Shown here piece by piece: positions 555-10,446 of a stretch of DNA of 64,000 nt. The position numbers were made by a program, and so were the translations under genes. The notes under the pieces were generated by a model. The model had not been told where the DNA came from, made no database searches, and saw only the letters and a program-made list of their open reading frames with translations. This DNA comes from Nitrosomonas sp. GTDB taxonomy: Bacteria > Pseudomonadota > Gammaproteobacteria > Burkholderiales > Nitrosomonadaceae. Each line of letters opens with the position of its first letter. The stretch's first letter is position 1. The stretch is taken from contig NZ_JAKFWH010000060.1 of the NCBI RefSeq assembly GCF_021731985.1, positions 61,457-125,456 of the forward strand, written 5' to 3'.

Positions 555-1886
555 TTAAAGCAATTGGTTAGCCAAGTTAGCCAGATTTGACCGCTCCCCC
601 TTTTCTAATCGCACATGTGCATAGATTTCATGATGCTTGATTTTATCAATAAGATAAGACAATCCATTACTTTGGGAATCGAGATAAGGCGTGTCTATTT
701 GGTAAATATCGCCGGTGAATATGATCTTGGTGTTTTCACCTGCGCGTGTAATGATAGTTTTTACTTCATGGGGGGTCAGATTCTGCGCCTCATCCACAAT
801 AAAAAAGACATTTGAAATGCTCCTGCCCCTGATATAGGCCAAAGGGGTAATTTTCAACTTTTCCTGATCGACCGCATCAGTAATCTTTTTATATTCTTTG
901 TCTTTTTCATTAAATTGACTTTTAATGAATTTAAGGTTATCCCACAACGGCTCCATATACGGATTGAGCTTTGATATGATGTCACCCGGTAAAAAACCAA
1001 TGTCTTTATTACTCAGTGGTACTACCGGTCGCGCCAAATATATCTGCTTGAAATGCCTTTTCTGGTCAAGCGCACCAGCCAGTGCCAGCAACGTTTTCCC
1101 CGTCCCTGCTACGCCCTGCAAAGTGACTAGTTTTATATTCGGATTAATGATCGCATGCAAAGCAAAAACTTGTTCGGCATTTCTCGGCGCAATCCGGTAG
1201 GCAGATTTCTTCTCAATGCGCTCGATTCTCTGCGACACTGGATTATAAAATACTAAAACAGAAGTTTTGCTGTTCTTCAGAATAAAGTAGTGATTGGGAA
1301 TAGGAGCTTTAATGCCAACATCCTCAGGCATACAAAAATCATTCGTGTAGATGCTGTCAATAATCCCTTTAGGCAACCCCTCTATAACAGTCTTACCGGT
1401 ATACAAGGATTCCAAATCTTTGATTTTCCCGGTTTTAAAATCTTCTGCAGCAATATTAAGGGACTTTGCCTTAAGTCGTAAGTTAATATCCTTGGTTACC
1501 AAGATTATCTTGTTTTTTGGATATTCTGCATTCAAAGAAATGACCGTGTTCAGAATGCGGTGATCGGCATTGTTTTCTCCAAAGATTTTTGTAGCATCCA
1601 GTCCATTTGTCTGTTCCTGCATAATCACTTTAAATTGACCGTGATTCGGTTTGTCAATGGGAATCCAATTTTGCAATGAGTGACTTGCCGACAGTTTGTC
1701 CATAATGCGTATGAATTCCCTTGTCTCAAAGTTCTTTGTCTCATTACCCTTCTTAAAATGATCAAGTTCTTCAAGTACGGTGATTGGAATGGCTACATTA
1801 TTTTCTTCAAAGCTATAGATTGCGTTGTGGTTGTATAAAATAACTGAGGTATCAAGAACATATATCTTCTTTTGCTTTCGCGGCAT
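555..1886 (-). CDS. PhoH family protein (N-terminal PIN domain plus PhoH ATPase)
   Basis: N-term KKIYVLDTSVILYNHNAI (PIN); Walker A LQGVAGTGKTLLALAGAL; VFFIVDEAQNLTPHEVKTIITRAG typical of PhoH. Confidence 0.93.
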   Translation of the reverse strand: MPRKQKKIYVLDTSVILYNHNAIYSFEENNVAIPITVLEELDHFKKGNETKNFETREFIRIMDKLSASHSLQNWIPIDKPNHGQFKVIMQEQTNGLDATKIFGENNADHRILNTVISLNAEYPKNKIILVTKDINLRLKAKSLNIAAEDFKTGKIKDLESLYTGKTVIEGLPKGIIDSIYTNDFCMPEDVGIKAPIPNHYFILKNSKTSVLVFYNPVSQRIERIEKKSAYRIAPRNAEQVFALHAIINPNIKLVTLQGVAGTGKTLLALAGALDQKRHFKQIYLARPVVPLSNKDIGFLPGDIISKLNPYMEPLWDNLKFIKSQFNEKDKEYKKITDAVDQEKLKITPLAYIRGRSISNVFFIVDEAQNLTPHEVKTIITRAGENTKIIFTGDIYQIDTPYLDSQSNGLSYLIDKIKHHEIYAHVRLEKGERSNLANLANQLL

Positions 1887-2401
1887 GAATAGCTAATTTG
1901 TTTTATAAAATGACAATACTAGTCATTAATTATTACAGTATCGTGTAAGTCATTTATTGAATACTGCATACTTATCCGATTGTCCCCTATCGACGTACTT
2001 AAGTAGGACGATTTGCCTTTCCACGTTTTCTGCCGGAATTTCAGCACTATTTTCTGAATGAGGCGGTTTGCGAATACCAGTCTTACTGCCGCACCGTCAT
2101 GGGTTTACATAGCCGTCTATGAACTCCAAGACATTCTAATTGGGAGCAATATTGCAGCGTATCGTCAAATCGGCGAACATGAGATGTAGAACTTCGCCCC
2201 GGCTACTCAATACTTGTTTGATTAGTACTCAAATTAAACTGAAAGCGGGATAGAGGCATATTCTGTTATGTGTTCGTAAGATTCTGTCGCTACAGAGAAT
2301 CCCCTGCTTTTTTATACTCTCTTAAATTAGGCAAAGAAACTCCTTGTTACGCTTAGAAAGCAATATACTTAAGTATTTAAACAATAACACTAAATTTAAA
2401 A

Positions 2402-3922
2402 ATGAATTCATTGCCAGAAAATACCTGGGAATTAAATGAGGTGGCCAGGAACACCGACATTCTCTCGGAAATATCCTCTGAGTTTGATATTGAGGCTAAT
2501 CCGGGCACAACCTCTAATCTACAATTTTACGATGACTTTGATTCTCATCTGTGGAAGGCGAATTATCTGCTTTGCCAAGTGAATAAACAGCAATTCCAAC
2601 TCATTGATCCTTCTGGCTGTATTGGCGAAGTTGGCGCATCAAGTGGAGCCAGATTCTGGTGGGAATTTTCAGGGAATCAAGTTAAAGACAAATTGCAAAG
2701 TTTAGTTGGTTTGCGCGCGGTATTACCTATCGCATCCATAAACTTGCTTGAGACGGATTTTTCATTGCGCAATGACGATCAAAAAATAGTGGTGAGAGGT
2801 CGTTTAACACAAACGATGGTTGGCAACAAAATTGGCCTTTATCTCACACTACAAGCGCTGCGGGGCTATGCAAAATATTATACCAGGGCTGCACAGCTTC
2901 TCAGGCATTTCATTAAGGCGGAAATTAATCATTTCGGATTGAGATTCCTGTTAATGGTTCAAGGTATTCAGGCCCTCGAACCAAAACAAGGTGCTCTACT
3001 ATCCCTGACGGAGGATATGCGGACAGAGCAAGCGGTACGAGCAATGGCCACTGCTATGCTTGTTCAGACAAAGCTTTATGTTGGTGGTGTAATTGCAGAT
3101 ACAGACACCGAGTTTTTGCATCAATTTCGAGTTAACGTTCGAAAACTAAGATCATTAATCAGTTTGTTAAAACAAGCATTGCCGACATCAATGCTTGACA
3201 CGCTAAAACCTAGACTATCTTCAATTGCAGGCAAAACGAATAAGCTTCGGGATCTAGACGTATTTATACTGGCTCAAGACAGTTATCGTGCGATGTTGCC
3301 AGCAAATTTTGAGAGTGGCTTAAACGAGCTGTATCGCTTAATTGAAAAGCAGCGCAAGCAAGAAAAAAACAAAGTGGCTAAATATTTGTCCTCTACCGAG
3401 TATAGGAACGATGTCGCTACCTGCGCAGCAGAATTATCTCAGAGCTCTGCTTTTCAAACACCCATGGCATCAAAACCAGTATTGCAAGCTGTAAAAAAAT
3501 TATTGTTAAAACGCTATCATAAAATGTTAGCAATGAGCGCGGCTATTAATAGCCAGTCAGCAGATGAAAAAATTCATGAATTACGCATTGAATTTAAAAA
3601 GCTACGCTACTTGATCGAATTTTTTGTTGATTTGTTGCCAAAGAAACGTACAGGCAAAATAGTCAGTGAAATTAAAAAGATACAAACAGTATTGGGTAAC
3701 TACAATGATTATTGTATCCAGATAGAGTTTTTAAACAGTTATATTGATGATACCCGGATTGAAATGTCAAAAGCTTTGAGTGGTTTGATAGCAATTTTGT
3801 ATCGAAAGAAAACAGAAGAACGTCCGAAAGTTGAAGGCGCATTAGCAGATTTTTTCACAGAAAATATGACCATTGAATTTGATTTGGTATTTGAGGCAGC
3901 AGAGACAGGAGATTCAGAATGA
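2402..3922 (+). CDS. CHAD domain-containing protein
   Basis: Two CHAD signature repeats: FLHQFRVNVRKLRSLISLLKQALP and IHELRIEFKKLRYLIEFFVDLLP. Stop overlaps the next start (ATGA). Confidence 0.88.
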   Translation: MNSLPENTWELNEVARNTDILSEISSEFDIEANPGTTSNLQFYDDFDSHLWKANYLLCQVNKQQFQLIDPSGCIGEVGASSGARFWWEFSGNQVKDKLQSLVGLRAVLPIASINLLETDFSLRNDDQKIVVRGRLTQTMVGNKIGLYLTLQALRGYAKYYTRAAQLLRHFIKAEINHFGLRFLLMVQGIQALEPKQGALLSLTEDMRTEQAVRAMATAMLVQTKLYVGGVIADTDTEFLHQFRVNVRKLRSLISLLKQALPTSMLDTLKPRLSSIAGKTNKLRDLDVFILAQDSYRAMLPANFESGLNELYRLIEKQRKQEKNKVAKYLSSTEYRNDVATCAAELSQSSAFQTPMASKPVLQAVKKLLLKRYHKMLAMSAAINSQSADEKIHELRIEFKKLRYLIEFFVDLLPKKRTGKIVSEIKKIQTVLGNYNDYCIQIEFLNSYIDDTRIEMSKALSGLIAILYRKKTEERPKVEGALADFFTENMTIEFDLVFEAAETGDSE

Positions 3923-4671
3923 AAGTGATTGCTTGCTACAGCATGAAAGGGGGCGTCGGAAAAACGGCTACTGCGGTCAATCTTGCCTACTGGGCTGCCA
4001 AATCCGGGTTAAAAACATTACTAATTGACTTGGATCCTCAAGGTGCCTCGTCCTTTTATTTCAGAATCAAGCCATCCTCAAAGAAATGGGCAAAGCGCTT
4101 TTTTAATGCGTATGAAAACTTGGTAAAACACATTAAAGCAAGTGATTTTGAGAATCTGGATATTATTCCGGCACATTTGAGTTTTCGTAACTTTGATACA
4201 CTGTTGGCAGGCTTCAAAAAACGCAAAAATCGGTTGAAGCGCGTATTAAAAGGCTTCAACAAAGAATATGACTTGGTGATACTAGACTGTCCGCCATCCA
4301 TTAGCTATCTGTCGGAATCTATATTTATCGCATCTAATTTGGTTTTGGTGCCTGTTATTCCTACCCCGCTTTCAGAACGGACTTTTGAGCAGCTGATGGC
4401 ATTTTTTGAGGAAAATGATTATCCGCAGAATAAGATCGTACCTTTTTTCTCAATGGTTCAAGGACAAAAGTCGCTGCACAAAGCCACGATGGAAGCCATG
4501 TCGGCAAGATACAAAATGTTTCTGAATACAATCATCCCTTATTCATCAGATATCGAGAAAATGGGCGTACACAAAGCACCTGTCGATGTTTTTGCTAAGT
4601 CTCAGCAGGCTAATTACGCTTATATCAAACTTTGGAAAGAAGTTTCAGAAACCGCGAGAAAGTGTGGATAA
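3919..4671 (+). CDS. ParA/MinD-like AAA ATPase
   Basis: Deviant Walker A MKGGVGKTATAVNLAYWAAKSGLKTLLIDLDPQGAS; YDLVILDCPPS Walker B. 4-bp overlap with the CHAD gene. Confidence 0.92.
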   Translation: MKVIACYSMKGGVGKTATAVNLAYWAAKSGLKTLLIDLDPQGASSFYFRIKPSSKKWAKRFFNAYENLVKHIKASDFENLDIIPAHLSFRNFDTLLAGFKKRKNRLKRVLKGFNKEYDLVILDCPPSISYLSESIFIASNLVLVPVIPTPLSERTFEQLMAFFEENDYPQNKIVPFFSMVQGQKSLHKATMEAMSARYKMFLNTIIPYSSDIEKMGVHKAPVDVFAKSQQANYAYIKLWKEVSETARKCG

Positions 4672-4909
4672 GTTAGAGCAATTGAGATGGGATGAAAATT
4701 CTATTTAATTGAGAAAAAATCGGACCTGCGCCGGAAAGAGCCTGGATTTTTTATGAGGAAGTATCTAATTTTCTATCATCCATGACCAGGGAAGTGCAGC
4801 TGGAAAAATCACGATATAGTTTTATCTGAATAGTCATCGACTTGAGTAGGGTATTTATAATGAATCACACAGACCTCTGATATTATCAGCAGTAGGGTTT
4901 TAATCTAAA

Positions 4910-5020
4910 GTGGAAGCCGTTAGCTTTACACCGCCGGAGTTTGCAGCTTTAGGTATGATTGAAAATAAACGCTATCAGAGTGCCCATCCAGTCAAGGAAG
5001 GTAAACGGGATTATGGCTAG
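4910..5020 (+). CDS. Possible small ORF (GTG start, 36 aa) or gene remnant overlapping the Nudix start
   Basis: Reads VEAVSFTPPEFAALGMIENKRYQSAHPVKEGKRDYG*; its TAG (5018-5020) overlaps the probable Nudix start ATGGCTAG (ATG at 5013). Confidence 0.3.
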   Translation: MEAVSFTPPEFAALGMIENKRYQSAHPVKEGKRDYG

Positions 5021-5429
5021 CAAGCAACATCATAAGAAAAAGCGCATCGCAGTAGTTCCTGTCGTCATGAGCAAAACTAGGCTCAAGGTATATCTGATAA
5101 CCAGTCGTGAGGAACGAAAGTGGATTATACCCACAGGAAAATTGGAGAAGAAGCTCAATAACAGACAGGTAGCAGCACTGGAAGCGTTTGAAGAGGCCGG
5201 CATTCTCGGTAAGCTTGATAAACACTTCAGAGAGCAAGTGTTACTGCAAAGTCCCAGTGGCAAACACAAGCGCAAAACAACGGTTTTTTTGCTCTACGTC
5301 AAGCGTATTTTAAAGTGCTGGCCAGAAATTCATGACCGCAAGCGTAAACTGGTAAGTTTGAAAAAATATTTAAAGTCGGTTTCCAATAGAAAGCTAAAAC
5401 GAAAGTTAGCAAAAAATATATATGCCTAG
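5013..5429 (+). CDS. Nudix hydrolase (DIPP-like)
   Basis: ORF 4959..5429; likely start at internal Met (MASKQHHKKKR...). Nudix-box-like KWIIPTGKLEKKLNNRQVAALEAFEEAGILG. Confidence 0.8.
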   Translation: MASKQHHKKKRIAVVPVVMSKTRLKVYLITSREERKWIIPTGKLEKKLNNRQVAALEAFEEAGILGKLDKHFREQVLLQSPSGKHKRKTTVFLLYVKRILKCWPEIHDRKRKLVSLKKYLKSVSNRKLKRKLAKNIYA

Positions 5430-5578: not shown

Positions 5579-6454
5579 TTAAGCCGTCTTTAGATTTGAT
5601 GGATTCTGCAAGTTAGGAATGATTAGTTTTTTGCTGAAAAACATAACTTCAGCGCCTTTGCAGTGATGTCGTGCGTTGTGATTGATATCACAGATCGTGG
5701 TCGGATAACCTTTGTACATCTCAATAATTTCCGGATTGTTGTCGCATAAAACTATCCAGTGCTGAGTGATATGTTCCTTGACCAGTTCTGCAATACTTAC
5801 GTGATCATTATGCAAATTGTGATTTTCATAAAGCCCGCGCCCTTTGACATAGGATGGGGGGACAATATAAGTAAGTGTTTTGTCGGGAAGTGTCGGTAAT
5901 ACGGTTTTAATAAAATCTGCCGCATTTTGGTTATAGAGATGAATCCGTGAATGGTACAGTGCAATCAACTCAATCCTGCGAATCAAGTCAACCTTATCAA
6001 AGCGTGCATCAAGCTTCCAATGACAGTCCTGATTTTCTCCATTGATAGATCCTCCCCAGAGGATTCCTAAGCGATTAACTCGATTTAGAAAAAAAATTGA
6101 GAATCCCACTTCAAGTGGACTGTGATTCGCAAGGGAATTTAGAATAGCCTTCTGCCGTTGCCATTCTTTCATTGTTATTTCTACATCGTGAATGGCTCTG
6201 CAAAGTGCTTCCGGTTGATTGATAACACTGCACCAGAAAGCGTATATAGCAGGATTCGCATCGTTCAAATGGATGCAGGATACATAGCCGCGAGTTAGTA
6301 AATTTATTGCTATCTCCGCACCGCCTGCGTAGGGCTCAACATAATGTCCATCTAACAGATTGTTTTGCTCAAAAATCAACTTAATGAATCTTGATAATTT
6401 GTTTCTTCCGCCTGGGTAACGTAAAGGGGTATTGAGTTTCATCGGATACTCCAT
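5579..6454 (-). CDS. D12-class adenine-specific DNA methyltransferase, orphan, with degenerate catalytic motif
   Basis: Motif I-like PLRYPGGRNKLSRFI; YVEPYAGGAEIAINLL; WKLDARFDKVDLIRRIELI. Motif IV region reads TYIVPPSYVKGRGLYENHN where D-P-P-Y is expected. Confidence 0.85.
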   Translation of the reverse strand: MEYPMKLNTPLRYPGGRNKLSRFIKLIFEQNNLLDGHYVEPYAGGAEIAINLLTRGYVSCIHLNDANPAIYAFWCSVINQPEALCRAIHDVEITMKEWQRQKAILNSLANHSPLEVGFSIFFLNRVNRLGILWGGSINGENQDCHWKLDARFDKVDLIRRIELIALYHSRIHLYNQNAADFIKTVLPTLPDKTLTYIVPPSYVKGRGLYENHNLHNDHVSIAELVKEHITQHWIVLCDNNPEIIEMYKGYPTTICDINHNARHHCKGAEVMFFSKKLIIPNLQNPSNLKTA

Positions 6455-6608
6455 TGTGAATTTGATGCGATGCTAACAACCAGGTTCTTACGCAGAAATA
6501 AAGTCATTTTTTATTATACATTTGATATAAGGCGAATACACGGTTCAAAACCCGCTATCAAGGTTTGTTAAAATTTAACAGAAATTTACTTGATCTCCCT
6601 ATTTGACA

Positions 6609-6738
6609 TCACATTTCAATCGCACCAAATTCTGTGCCTAAGATTTCTTGTGCTGCAAGACCAAGACCATCGCGATAATAGCATAGTGATTTTTCCAAGC
6701 CATCGGCGCCCATCGTAGTCAGCGTAATTTGAGCTAAC
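6609..6738 (-). pseudogene. Glyoxalase/VOC family N-terminal gene remnant
   Basis: Minus-strand reading gives ITLTTMGADGLEKSLCYYRDGLGLAAQEILGTEFGAIEM*, resembling the start of VOC proteins (ITLGVxDLExSLxFYRDGLGLPxxGIxGTEFxxGA); terminated after about 40 residues. Confidence 0.55.
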
Positions 6739-6841
6739 TTTCAAATAAGTATGTGCAACTGGTGATCTGTCATATTTATGTAATCAAATTTTTTTATAAT
6801 TTATAAAATTACTTCTCGTATCCCTGAAAATTGTTGGGATT

Positions 6842-8716
6842 ATGATTAAACAGAAACTAGGTTCGCGCAAATCTGAAAAGTTGCATCCTTATGCCAGCTT
6901 GCTGAATGAGCTGGAAGGGTTGCGGAGTGAACTGTTGGCGCTTGAATACTCATCCTCGACAACACTGCAGCATGTACATCCTTCCCATCTATTCAGTGCC
7001 GTTAATCTGATTCACTACCTGGTCTTGAGGCGACGAGATATACGGTCGCTGCAAGAAAGATTGGCGGCAGTGGGTCTCTCATCGTTAGGTCGCATGGAAT
7101 CGCATGTCTTCGCCAATCTCAATGCGATCATTGCTCTTTTGAGCTGCGCATTAGGCAAGAAATCGGTTGACAAAATAGTGCCTCCCGCAGAGGCGGTAGG
7201 CGCGGCACAGCTTGAAAGCAACACCAATCAGTTATTTGGCAAGCCTCCCTCGCATCGCAGAGTCCGGGTCATGGTCACGATGCCAGGCGGAGTGGCGGAC
7301 GATTATTCGTTGATCAAAGACATGCTCATCCATGGTATGGATTGCGCCCGCATCAATTGTGCGCATGATACACCTGAAATATGGAACCGCATGATTGCGC
7401 ATATCAATTTGGCGCGTCGTGAAACCGGCAGGCCTTGCCGTATCCTAATGGATTTGGGTGGTCCTAAGTTGCGCACTGGCGAAATTGCCCCAGGTCCGGC
7501 TGTACTTAAATGGAAGCCACAACGAGATCTCTATGGCAACGTGATTGCACCCGCGCGAATATGGTTGCATCCCGAAAGCGATACTTCTCCCAGCCCGGCT
7601 CCTGCAGATGCTTGTCTGCCTATACAGGGAGATTGGCTGACAAAATTTACATCGCGCGATATCATTGAGTTTACTGACGCGCGGGGTTCCTCCCGTAGCG
7701 TGCAATTGGTTGGTCAAATTGGAACAGGCTTTTGGGGCGAATCCAGTCAAACCACCTATATCACGCCTGGTATAGCACTCAATCGCCTGCGGGTACCTGT
7801 GTCCGGACATCCCCGTCGTACGGGTTGTACCGGCATTGTCGGAACGCTATCGCCAGTACCTGAATTGATCCGCTTGCACATTGAAGACAATCTGAATATC
7901 ACATCTGAACCTTTGCCGGGTACGCCAGCCCAGTTCGATGCGGGAGGACGATTGCTGCATGCGGCCAGTATTGCCTGCTCCTTGCCGGAAGTATTTCTAA
8001 ACGTCCAGCCAGGTGAACGTATCCTGATTGATGATGGCAGAATCGGTGGCGTAATTCGCAGTGTCTGTAAAAATAAATTAGTCGTTGAAATCACGCAAGC
8101 CCGCGAAGGTGGAGAGAAACTGCTCGCGAATAAAGGCATCAACTTACCGGATAGCCGACTTGAGTTGAATGGTCTGACGGAACAAGACATAGAGCACCTG
8201 GAATTTGTCGTGAAACATGCAGACATGGTCGGACTTTCATTTGTCAGAAGGCCTGCTGACATTCTGTTATTACAAAAGCATTTGAAACGGTTGAAAGCTG
8301 AAAAATTGGGGATCGTGCTGAAAATCGAAACGCGCGCTGCGTTTGAGAATCTACCGGAACTGTTGTTGACTTTGCTGCGATCATCAAATGTCGGTGTAAT
8401 GATTGCGCGTGGTGATCTGGCGGTGGAATGCGGCTATGAAAGATTGGCGGAATTACAGGAAGAAATTCTTTGGTTGGCTGAGGCGGCGCGTTTACCGGTG
8501 ATATGGGCTACGCAGGTATTGGAGGGATTATCCAAGAGCGGCAAACCCAGTCGCGCTGAAATAACCGATGCGGCGATGGGTGTGCGTGCCGAATGCGTTA
8601 TGTTGAATAAAGGATCGCATATTATCGAAGCAATCCAGTCATTGGATGACATCCTGCATCGCATGCAATCCCATCAGAATAAAAAGATATCGCTGTTGCG
8701 GCGCCTGCATTGGTAA
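6842..8716 (+). CDS. Atypical pyruvate kinase-like protein with long N-terminal extension and enlarged B-domain
   Basis: RVMVTMPGG, ARINCAHDTPEIW, LMDLGGPKLRTGEI, ADMVGLSFVRRPADI, VLKIETRAAFENL, GVMIARGDLAVECGYERL, PVIWATQVLEGLSKSGKPSRAEITDAAMGVRAECVMLNKG; no typical PK C-terminal domain. Confidence 0.88.
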   Translation: MIKQKLGSRKSEKLHPYASLLNELEGLRSELLALEYSSSTTLQHVHPSHLFSAVNLIHYLVLRRRDIRSLQERLAAVGLSSLGRMESHVFANLNAIIALLSCALGKKSVDKIVPPAEAVGAAQLESNTNQLFGKPPSHRRVRVMVTMPGGVADDYSLIKDMLIHGMDCARINCAHDTPEIWNRMIAHINLARRETGRPCRILMDLGGPKLRTGEIAPGPAVLKWKPQRDLYGNVIAPARIWLHPESDTSPSPAPADACLPIQGDWLTKFTSRDIIEFTDARGSSRSVQLVGQIGTGFWGESSQTTYITPGIALNRLRVPVSGHPRRTGCTGIVGTLSPVPELIRLHIEDNLNITSEPLPGTPAQFDAGGRLLHAASIACSLPEVFLNVQPGERILIDDGRIGGVIRSVCKNKLVVEITQAREGGEKLLANKGINLPDSRLELNGLTEQDIEHLEFVVKHADMVGLSFVRRPADILLLQKHLKRLKAEKLGIVLKIETRAAFENLPELLLTLLRSSNVGVMIARGDLAVECGYERLAELQEEILWLAEAARLPVIWATQVLEGLSKSGKPSRAEITDAAMGVRAECVMLNKGSHIIEAIQSLDDILHRMQSHQNKKISLLRRLHW

Positions 8717-9015
8717 GCTTTCGCTGGGAGCAAGTAAGTTTTTCTTCTGATTCACAAGGAATTTCTAAGAATTTTGAATTCACCAAAAAAATTTGATAGA
8801 TCAATTTCCTCAGAGTTTTATGTCCATAATGGCCAAGATTGCGGAAAGTGCAGATTCAAAGCTATCAACACATGTTCTTGGCTCTCCTTTTACTGTTCAT
8901 GACCATTCGATTAATATTCTTGTCATGATGCTGTCATTCCCCCATGCAAAAATTCAAGACTATCCGGTGTCAGTATTGACTGGCGGGATCTCGTTAAACC
9001 TCAAAGGAAATAAAC

Positions 9016-10446
9016 ATGATAACTTTTAAACAAAAATCAAAAATAATGCTACCAGTACTTTTGGCAATCTCATTGGCAGTGCCGGTTGCAAATGCAACAC
9101 CAGTATTGCTTGGTATCGGGAGTCTTCCAGGTACCGGAAGCGATTTGTCAGGTTTGACAGGCACACTCGAAAGTGGAATCTCCGCTAATCTTCTGGGTGG
9201 AATGGGTTCTGGCTTTGCCTATGCCGGAAACAATACCTTCCTAGCACTGCCAGATAGAGGTCCGAACGCTCTCGCCTATACCGGAGGAAGTGCCGTGGAT
9301 AACACCACTTCCTATATCTCCCGTTTTCATACAATCGGCTTAAGCTATTCGGCGGGCACCACACTACCTCTCACAGTTACAACTACCTTAGACGATACCA
9401 CTTTGCTTTCAAGCGCCACATCTTTGACGTACGCAACCGGTGCCGCACCCGCTTTAAATACTGCGACGATTAACTATTTCAGTGGCCGCTCGGATAATTT
9501 TGGAGCCGGCAGCTCGCTCAATCCAAATAACGGACGTCTTGATCCTGAAGGCATTCGTGTTTCAAACGATGGTAAAAGCGTGTTTATCTCAGATGAATAC
9601 GGTCCTTATGTTTACCAGTTTGATCGCCAGACTGGCGAGCGTATCAATTCATTCGTTTTGCCAGGTAATTTAGCCGCAGCGAACCTGAGTTCAAATGGTG
9701 CCGCAGAGATCAGCGGCAATACCGATGGCCGGGTTGCCAACAAAGGCATGGAAGGACTCGCTATTTCCCCGGATGGCACAACTCTCTTCGGTTTTATGCA
9801 AAGCCCATTGTTGCAGGATGGTGGCGATGGTGGACGGGCCAATCGCATAGTTTCAATAGACATTGCGACCGGTGCAACGCATGAATTTGCGTATGACAAC
9901 CAGATTGGCACAAAAAATTACAACAGCAGTGAAATACTCGCCATTAATAATCATGAATTCCTGGTTCTCGAACGGGATGGTAAGGGGCTAGGTGATGGCT
10001 CAAATGCGGCGATCAAGCAGTTGTGGAAGGTTGATCTGGATGGTGCTACCGACATAACGAGTATGAGTGGCCAAGCAAATCTGTTAGCTAATCAAGGGCA
10101 TCCGGATAAAAGTTTGTTCCTTGATATCAGAGCATTGCTTAATGCAAACGGCATTACTGATGCAAACATCCCGGCCAAGCTGGAAGGCGCGGCTTTTGGT
10201 GATGACGTAATTGTTGGTACCGAAACTTATCACACACTCATATTAACCAACGACAATGATTTTACAACCGCTGCCGGAGATAATCAGTTCTTTGTAATCG
10301 GTTTCAAGGATGCTGATCTTGGAGGCTCGGTTTATCTTCCTCAAGCCGTATCGGCAGTTCCAGAGCCCGAAACCTATGTTATGTTATTAGTCGGATTTAG
10401 CTTACTGGGATTCATGGCGCATCGCAGAAAAGAATCAATAGCTTAA
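9016..10446 (+). CDS. Esterase-like activity of phytase family protein with PEP-CTERM sorting signal
   Basis: Signal peptide MLPVLLAISLAVPVANA; beta-propeller-like DPEGIRVSNDGKSVFISDEYGPYVYQFD and KGMEGLAISPDGTTLFG; C-term VPEPETYVMLLVGFSLLGFMAHRRK. Confidence 0.9.
   Translation: MITFKQKSKIMLPVLLAISLAVPVANATPVLLGIGSLPGTGSDLSGLTGTLESGISANLLGGMGSGFAYAGNNTFLALPDRGPNALAYTGGSAVDNTTSYISRFHTIGLSYSAGTTLPLTVTTTLDDTTLLSSATSLTYATGAAPALNTATINYFSGRSDNFGAGSSLNPNNGRLDPEGIRVSNDGKSVFISDEYGPYVYQFDRQTGERINSFVLPGNLAAANLSSNGAAEISGNTDGRVANKGMEGLAISPDGTTLFGFMQSPLLQDGGDGGRANRIVSIDIATGATHEFAYDNQIGTKNYNSSEILAINNHEFLVLERDGKGLGDGSNAAIKQLWKVDLDGATDITSMSGQANLLANQGHPDKSLFLDIRALLNANGITDANIPAKLEGAAFGDDVIVGTETYHTLILTNDNDFTTAAGDNQFFVIGFKDADLGGSVYLPQAVSAVPEPETYVMLLVGFSLLGFMAHRRKESIA

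Follow-up and report, generated by a model that had tools for sequence, protein, structure and literature searches.

The window, a stretch of 64,000 nucleotides from a Nitrosomonas genome whose nearest relatives are Nitrosomonas isolates and MAGs, carries genes for a CHAD protein, a ParA-family ATPase and a DIPP-like Nudix protein (Table 1), all of which hold up in family searches. The CHAD and ParA reading frames have the ATGA at 3919-3922 in common, a stop-start overlap that the earlier note had described and that the ORF calls bear out. The Nudix gene counted there as part of the cluster is real, its best match among solved structures being yeast Ddp1 (E = 1e-9), but it lies 341 bp past ParA and is therefore not tightly coupled in the window. 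The three-gene cluster proposed in that note thus consists of genuine genes but is incomplete, as it left unseen both the decayed CYTH gene of a reduced operon and an inactivated CYTH/TTM domain within the CHAD protein.

Table 1. Features of the CHAD-ParA locus in the window and genes of the related operon in L166 (in the coordinates of L166)
Feature	Position	Strand	Details
Probable RHH (ribbon-helix-helix) gene remnant	2332-2379	+	QRNSLLRLESNILKYL, just 5' of CHAD
CHAD protein gene	2402-3922	+	506 aa; Pfam CHAD E = 2e-47, residues 216-444
Degenerate CYTH/TTM domain, N-terminus of CHAD protein	2402-3001	+	residues ~1-200
CHAD domain	3047-3733	+	residues 216-444; predicted polyP residues H240, R243, R247, R283, R402, Y403
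C-terminal tail of CHAD protein with FxxVF motif	3860-3919	+	candidate ParA-contact site (speculative)
ParA-family ATPase gene	3919-4671	+	250 aa; AAA_31 E = 4e-39; KGGVGKT deviant Walker A
Decayed standalone CYTH/TTM gene	4755-5011	+	disrupted by frameshifts and stops; in the gap before Nudix
DIPP-like Nudix gene	5013-5429	+	best start ATG 5013, 138 aa; Pfam NUDIX 2.5e-5 (weak)
L166, RHH gene	about 9061-9255	-	
L166, CHAD gene	7529-9061	-	
L166, CYTH gene	6315-6782	-	

PhoH and GDPD genes had also been noted in the neighbourhood. The former is real (555-1886, minus strand; a PIN-PhoH protein of the PhoH2 type) but is not part of a conserved unit: it is present in the closest relative (L004), and four of five relatives (L042, L009, L003 and L006) lack it at the equivalent site, which rules it out as a member. 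A scan of ORFs over the first 12 kb of the window turned up no GDPD; the phosphate-like neighbour there is a phytase-like PEP-CTERM protein (9016-10446).

Co-occurrence of CHAD and ParA across genomes, which the earlier note proposed to check, reaches far beyond close relatives. In a class-wide sample of 369 Gammaproteobacteria genomes, a well-separated ParA subfamily of 58 members was delimited at E <= 1e-55, the next ParAs scoring 1e-41 or weaker, and the subfamily profile matches the window ParA at 2e-133. A CHAD gene lies immediately upstream on the same strand in 43 of the 58, compared with none of 63 weaker, more distant ParAs; the reading frames overlap in 31 of these 43 loci, and the gap is below 30 bp in 40. 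Among 61 genomes from the genus and the wider order, the two genes are adjacent in 13 from Nitrosomonas, of which one was counted on the strength of fragments on a short contig; a single genome from another family of the order also has them side by side. Across this set, identity falls to about 24% for CHAD and 39% for ParA. Pairwise distances of the two proteins are correlated (r = 0.85, a value as high being reached in 0 of 2000 permutations, with species relatedness uncorrected), and within Nitrosomonas alone the ParAs of the pair fall into no fewer than three separate lineages of the tree, which points towards joint transfer of CHAD and ParA. Paracoccus plasmids carry the pair as well. These observations support CHAD-ParA as a deeply conserved, co-transmitted pair. 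The distance of the window Nudix gene and the lack of conservation of PhoH and other neighbours would fit a coincidental arrangement of genes, but for CHAD and ParA coincidence is already refuted by their adjacency, overlapping frames and correlated divergence and by the repeated presence of polyP genes, and its probability is negligible.

The ParA subfamily extends further than the pair, since outside Gammaproteobacteria most of its members do not adjoin CHAD; in the ParA tree, 44 of the 100 rows have no adjoining CHAD. That the subfamily always occurs with CHAD was therefore ruled out, the sister lineages outside Gammaproteobacteria being mostly without it. One sister ParA lineage without CHAD (L146-L157, L175-L177) often has conserved divergent genes upstream, and in a single family (L098, L099 and L100) the subfamily ParA adjoins a response-regulator gene and no CHAD. 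A contig binned as Legionella (L008) encodes a CHAD N-terminus 94% identical to that of the window, which is probably a binning error. The search of a phage collection returned generic ParA matches only, at about 30% identity.

The C-terminal part of the AlphaFold2 model of the CHAD protein (pLDDT 90.5) matches the Chlorobium CHAD-polyP complex 6qva with a TM-score of 0.92 by target length (Foldseek), and the N-terminal part matches thiamine triphosphatase (THTPA) and other TTM enzymes with a Foldseek probability of 1.00. By sequence profile comparison the likeness of the N-terminal domain to CYTH is weak (E = 2e-4, probability 48%); the structure comparison, which returns a TTM fold, ruled out an unrelated domain at this end of the protein. 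Pfam CYTH is undetectable in all 43 full-length ParA-linked CHAD proteins and intact in all 15 unlinked ones of the same order, and the ExExK motif and tunnel arginines that are invariant in the 15 CYTH-CHADs are lost in the ParA-linked set. Twenty further unlinked long CHADs comprise 13 with CYTH (one of which fits both profiles) and 4 of the degenerate type, so the association of degeneracy with ParA linkage is strong, not absolute. The N-terminal domain is missing altogether from a few short ParA-linked CHAD proteins.

The polyP-contact residues are retained in 42-43 of the 43 ParA-linked homologues. In the window protein the predicted polyP residues (Table 1) correspond to positions mutated in CtCHAD and SsCHAD, where mutation abolishes or weakens polyP binding (PMC6537752), and we infer that this protein binds polyP too. 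A dead TTM domain together with kept polyP residues is, at the sequence level, the pattern to be expected if an enzyme-CHAD fusion became a pure polyP adaptor. The FxxVF tail might, speculatively, be the site of contact with ParA; FxxLF-like basic tails occur in many ParA-linked CHADs and in four unlinked degenerate-CYTH CHADs, and in none of the CYTH-CHAD proteins. No classical N-terminal basic activating peptide was evident.

Genes of polyP metabolism recur around the pair. Of 28 families with the pair, 6 have PPK1 no more than 7 kb away, where random placement would give 0.11 (p = 3e-9); PPX is near it in 3 of the 28 and a SixA-like phosphatase in 10, and other pair loci also contain CYTH and DIPP-like Nudix genes. 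Linkage to ppk/ppx, another point raised in the earlier note, is thus found elsewhere but not in the genome of the window, in which ppk1 and ppx are present on another contig than the pair. One subfamily ParA lies 8 bp downstream of ppk1 in a genome without CHAD (L092:5671-8689). A conserved folD-ppk-parA-CHAD cluster was described for Acidithiobacillus in a 2024 paper on copper resistance, in which parA figures as plasmid partition only (PMC10892726). We consider it very likely, with strong genomic support, that the CHAD-ParA pair acts on polyP. Some other Nitrosomonadales (L053, L054 and L057) have an intact CYTH-CHAD gene that overlaps or adjoins ppk1, with no ParA; CYTH-CHAD beside ppk1 represents an alternative layout for these polyP genes.

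E. coli mutants in ygiF, which are sensitive to copper, are complemented by the Acidithiobacillus CHAD gene of the parA-CHAD cluster (PMC10892726), which speaks for a role of the pair in resistance to copper or heavy metals by way of polyP, as has been suggested for CHAD proteins generally. This would leave ParA unexplained, and the neighbourhood is without metal genes according to the same paper. Metal resistance does not conflict with a role in polyP, of which it could be a downstream consequence, and as the function of the pair it seems very improbable.

The ParA protein has the equipment of its family, as the deviant Walker A, the Walker A' Asp and the Walker B Asp are all present, with K10 (the signature lysine), K15, D39 and D123 invariant in all 54 CHAD-linked ParAs, and these proteins are basic (median pI 9.4). 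Their nearest solved structures are ParA/Soj segregation ATPases, McdA fitting the profile less well than the Soj type. The lysine through which HpParA contacts DNA (K227; PMC11229316) aligns with Y208 of the window ParA, and 45 of the 54 CHAD-linked members have Tyr here, so DNA or nucleoid binding by the CHAD-linked ParA is not to be assumed. The earlier note had seen no ParB and held that this is not a chromosomal parAB locus. In agreement with this, the chromosomal ParB of three related genomes (G006, G016 and G020) adjoins a different ParA; no parB linked to the CHAD-linked ParA was found there, and the absence of a ParB holds for this ParA.

The most likely role of such an ATPase is to position or partition polyP granules, a plausible mechanism toward which we lean for two reasons: the parallel with McdAB, and the fact that ATPases of this kind are usually accompanied by a gene for a dedicated adaptor. 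The locus would then encode a ParA-type cargo system with the polyP granule as cargo. The CHAD protein would be the cargo adaptor, gripping polyP on the granule, and its N-terminal TTM domain, being without catalytic residues, would presumably serve as a scaffold, not as an enzyme. The co-translated ParA would dimerise with ATP, probably on the nucleoid; granule-bound CHAD would stimulate it, with the result that granules would be spaced, or shared among daughter cells, as carboxysomes are by McdA-McdB. Synthesis or processing of polyP at the granule could fall to the products of the third genes, which vary (CYTH triphosphatase, DIPP-like Nudix, SixA, PPX and PPK1). Counting against this reading are the tyrosine at the DNA-contact position, the many subfamily ParAs that do not adjoin CHAD, the four unlinked CHADs with a degenerate N-terminus, the apparent lack of a classical activating peptide, and the location of ppk1 and ppx away from the pair in the genome of the window.

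These third genes, which are phosphohydrolases or PPK throughout, would suit the main rival to positioning, in which ParA would bind the CHAD scaffold as an ATP-dependent switch or as an assembly factor of polyP enzymes, governing how PPK, PPX, CYTH or Nudix are recruited to polyP or act on it. Many ParA/MinD relatives work in enzyme complexes (BcsQ, NifH-like), and both the ParA directly behind PPK1 without CHAD and the tyrosine in place of the known DNA-contact lysine would fit such a role. The full ParA-type deviant Walker signature and the basic pI, however, suit nucleoid-bound cargo ATPases better, and segregation ATPases are the nearest solved structures; we see the switch as possible but rather unlikely.

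Comparison with related loci shows the window to contain a reduced version of a longer RHH-CHAD-ParA-CYTH-Nudix operon, which is intact in L166 (9634 bp), a locus from outside Gammaproteobacteria. With the L166 CYTH as tblastn query, the gap between ParA and Nudix in the window gives 44 bits, while the highest score among 100 shuffles was 19.6. A relative (L042) retains a nearly full-length CYTH pseudogene, fuller than that of the window (E = 4e-28), and the standalone CYTH is intact in L043, L166 and Paracoccus. Intact CYTH proteins of these operons match the structure of NeuTTM (NE1496 of Nitrosomonas europaea; 2fbl, E = 1e-32), a specific tripolyphosphatase that hydrolyses tripolyphosphate (PMC3440374), whereas the counterpart in the window has decayed. 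Complete Paracoccus plasmids carry a small ORF, CHAD, an AAA ATPase, CYTH and NUDIX in that order, with proteins that fit the same profiles; on one further Paracoccus plasmid, NUDIX is not annotated in the operon. The L166 ParA is close to the window ParA, which suggests transfer of the whole operon. The Paracoccus plasmids with this operon (L199, L200, L202 and L203) measure about 138-370 kb; L199 has a second CYTH gene, and an IS256 transposase adjoins the operon in L202.

A Nudix homologue follows ParA or CYTH in L166, in Paracoccus and in L116, L117 and L120, which form a separate family with Nudix recurring behind ParA. Ddp1-type enzymes are counted among the polyphosphatases (PMC6537752). 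Compared with GX5EX7REUXEEXGU, the window Nudix box (GX5LX7LEAFEEAG) has kept the E..EE core and, unlike the Ddp1/DIPP hydrolases it otherwise resembles, has its first Glu and its Arg replaced.

The small ORF before CHAD encodes an RHH protein (Pfam RHH_1, E = 0.0066, a match below the cut-off). This gene is intact 5' of CHAD in L166, L199 and L200, and it overlaps CHAD in L166 and the Paracoccus plasmids. In the window, QRNSLLRLESNILKYL aligns with KKNTSLRLESKTLKAL of the intact L166 RHH, with a score reached by 2 of 1000 dinucleotide shuffles, and the stretch before CHAD is a probable RHH remnant. Because an RHH gene lies upstream of CHAD, we weighed a DNA partition module, in which RHH would bind the centromere (as ParG does for ParF), ParA would segregate the replicon and CHAD would be a passenger. 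Besides the overlap of the RHH and CHAD genes, it would accord with type Ib plasmid systems, where RHH proteins partner ParA (PMC7308502). The upstream regions are nevertheless devoid of iterons, RHH is found in few of the searched loci, its copy in the window having decayed, and the loci are mostly chromosomal with variable surroundings. With CHAD as the conserved partner and the chromosomal ParB having its own ParA, partition of DNA is highly unlikely.

Granule positioning, the reading we prefer, invites comparison with known systems. As in the McdAB system of carboxysomes, a ParA/MinD-family ATPase gene lies beside the gene of a cargo-linked protein, and the spacing of a cytoplasmic body is proposed; the adaptor here is a degenerate TTM-CHAD, not McdB, and the proposed cargo is polyP. 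The window protein shares the CHAD fold and polyP residues with the phosins (ReCHAD, CtCHAD and ygiF), of which CtCHAD is the nearest solved relative, but its TTM domain is without the catalytic motif and its gene is coupled to ParA, a partner that the CHAD structure paper does not discuss (PMC6537752). The Acidithiobacillus cluster, in which parA adjoins CHAD and is linked to ppk, very probably represents the same system, although it was described without a positioning hypothesis, a subfamily analysis or the degenerate CYTH (PMC10892726). AlgP of Pseudomonas aeruginosa also influences the spacing of polyP granules, but it is a histone H1-like tether without an ATPase and is not homologous (PMC9239181).

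The component families were known already, as was CHAD-parA adjacency in one genus (Acidithiobacillus). The subfamily-wide pairing, the dead TTM adaptor domain, the decaying five-gene operon and the plasmid copies were not found in the open-access literature, and prior work elsewhere is possible; a literature search for the CHAD-CYTH-ATPase combination yielded no paper, and a survey of ParA/MinD proteins does not mention CHAD (PMC10241942). According to a 2025 review, the spacing component, the mechanism and the ATP dependence of polyP granule positioning are unknown (PMC13052382). A conserved two-gene candidate, consisting of a predicted polyP-binding protein and a ParA ATPase, makes the question of granule spacing directly testable, and the pair may be the missing machinery that positions polyP granules in bacteria. 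We give about even chances to the full proposal, namely a dedicated ATP-driven system for the positioning and inheritance of polyP granules, built from ParA and a dead TTM-CHAD adaptor, that would be widespread in Pseudomonadota and would travel on plasmids with its own polyP enzymes. If true, a mineral-like storage polymer would join the cargos of the ParA/MinD family, and the loss of N-terminal enzyme activity in a class of CHAD proteins would be explained by their having been turned into adaptors.

Downstream of the Nudix gene, the window encodes a D12-class adenine methyltransferase (5579-6454, minus strand) that matches PADLOC PD-Lambda-5_B at 2e-105, and homologues of it are found near the CHAD-ParA pair in L042, L004, L003 and L007. 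A defence system was rejected as a reading of the locus, PADLOC having no match for CHAD or Nudix and weak ATPase cross-matches only for ParA. A pyruvate-kinase-like protein of 624 aa follows at 6842-8716, in which the best Pfam PK barrel stretch covers residues 376-589 only.
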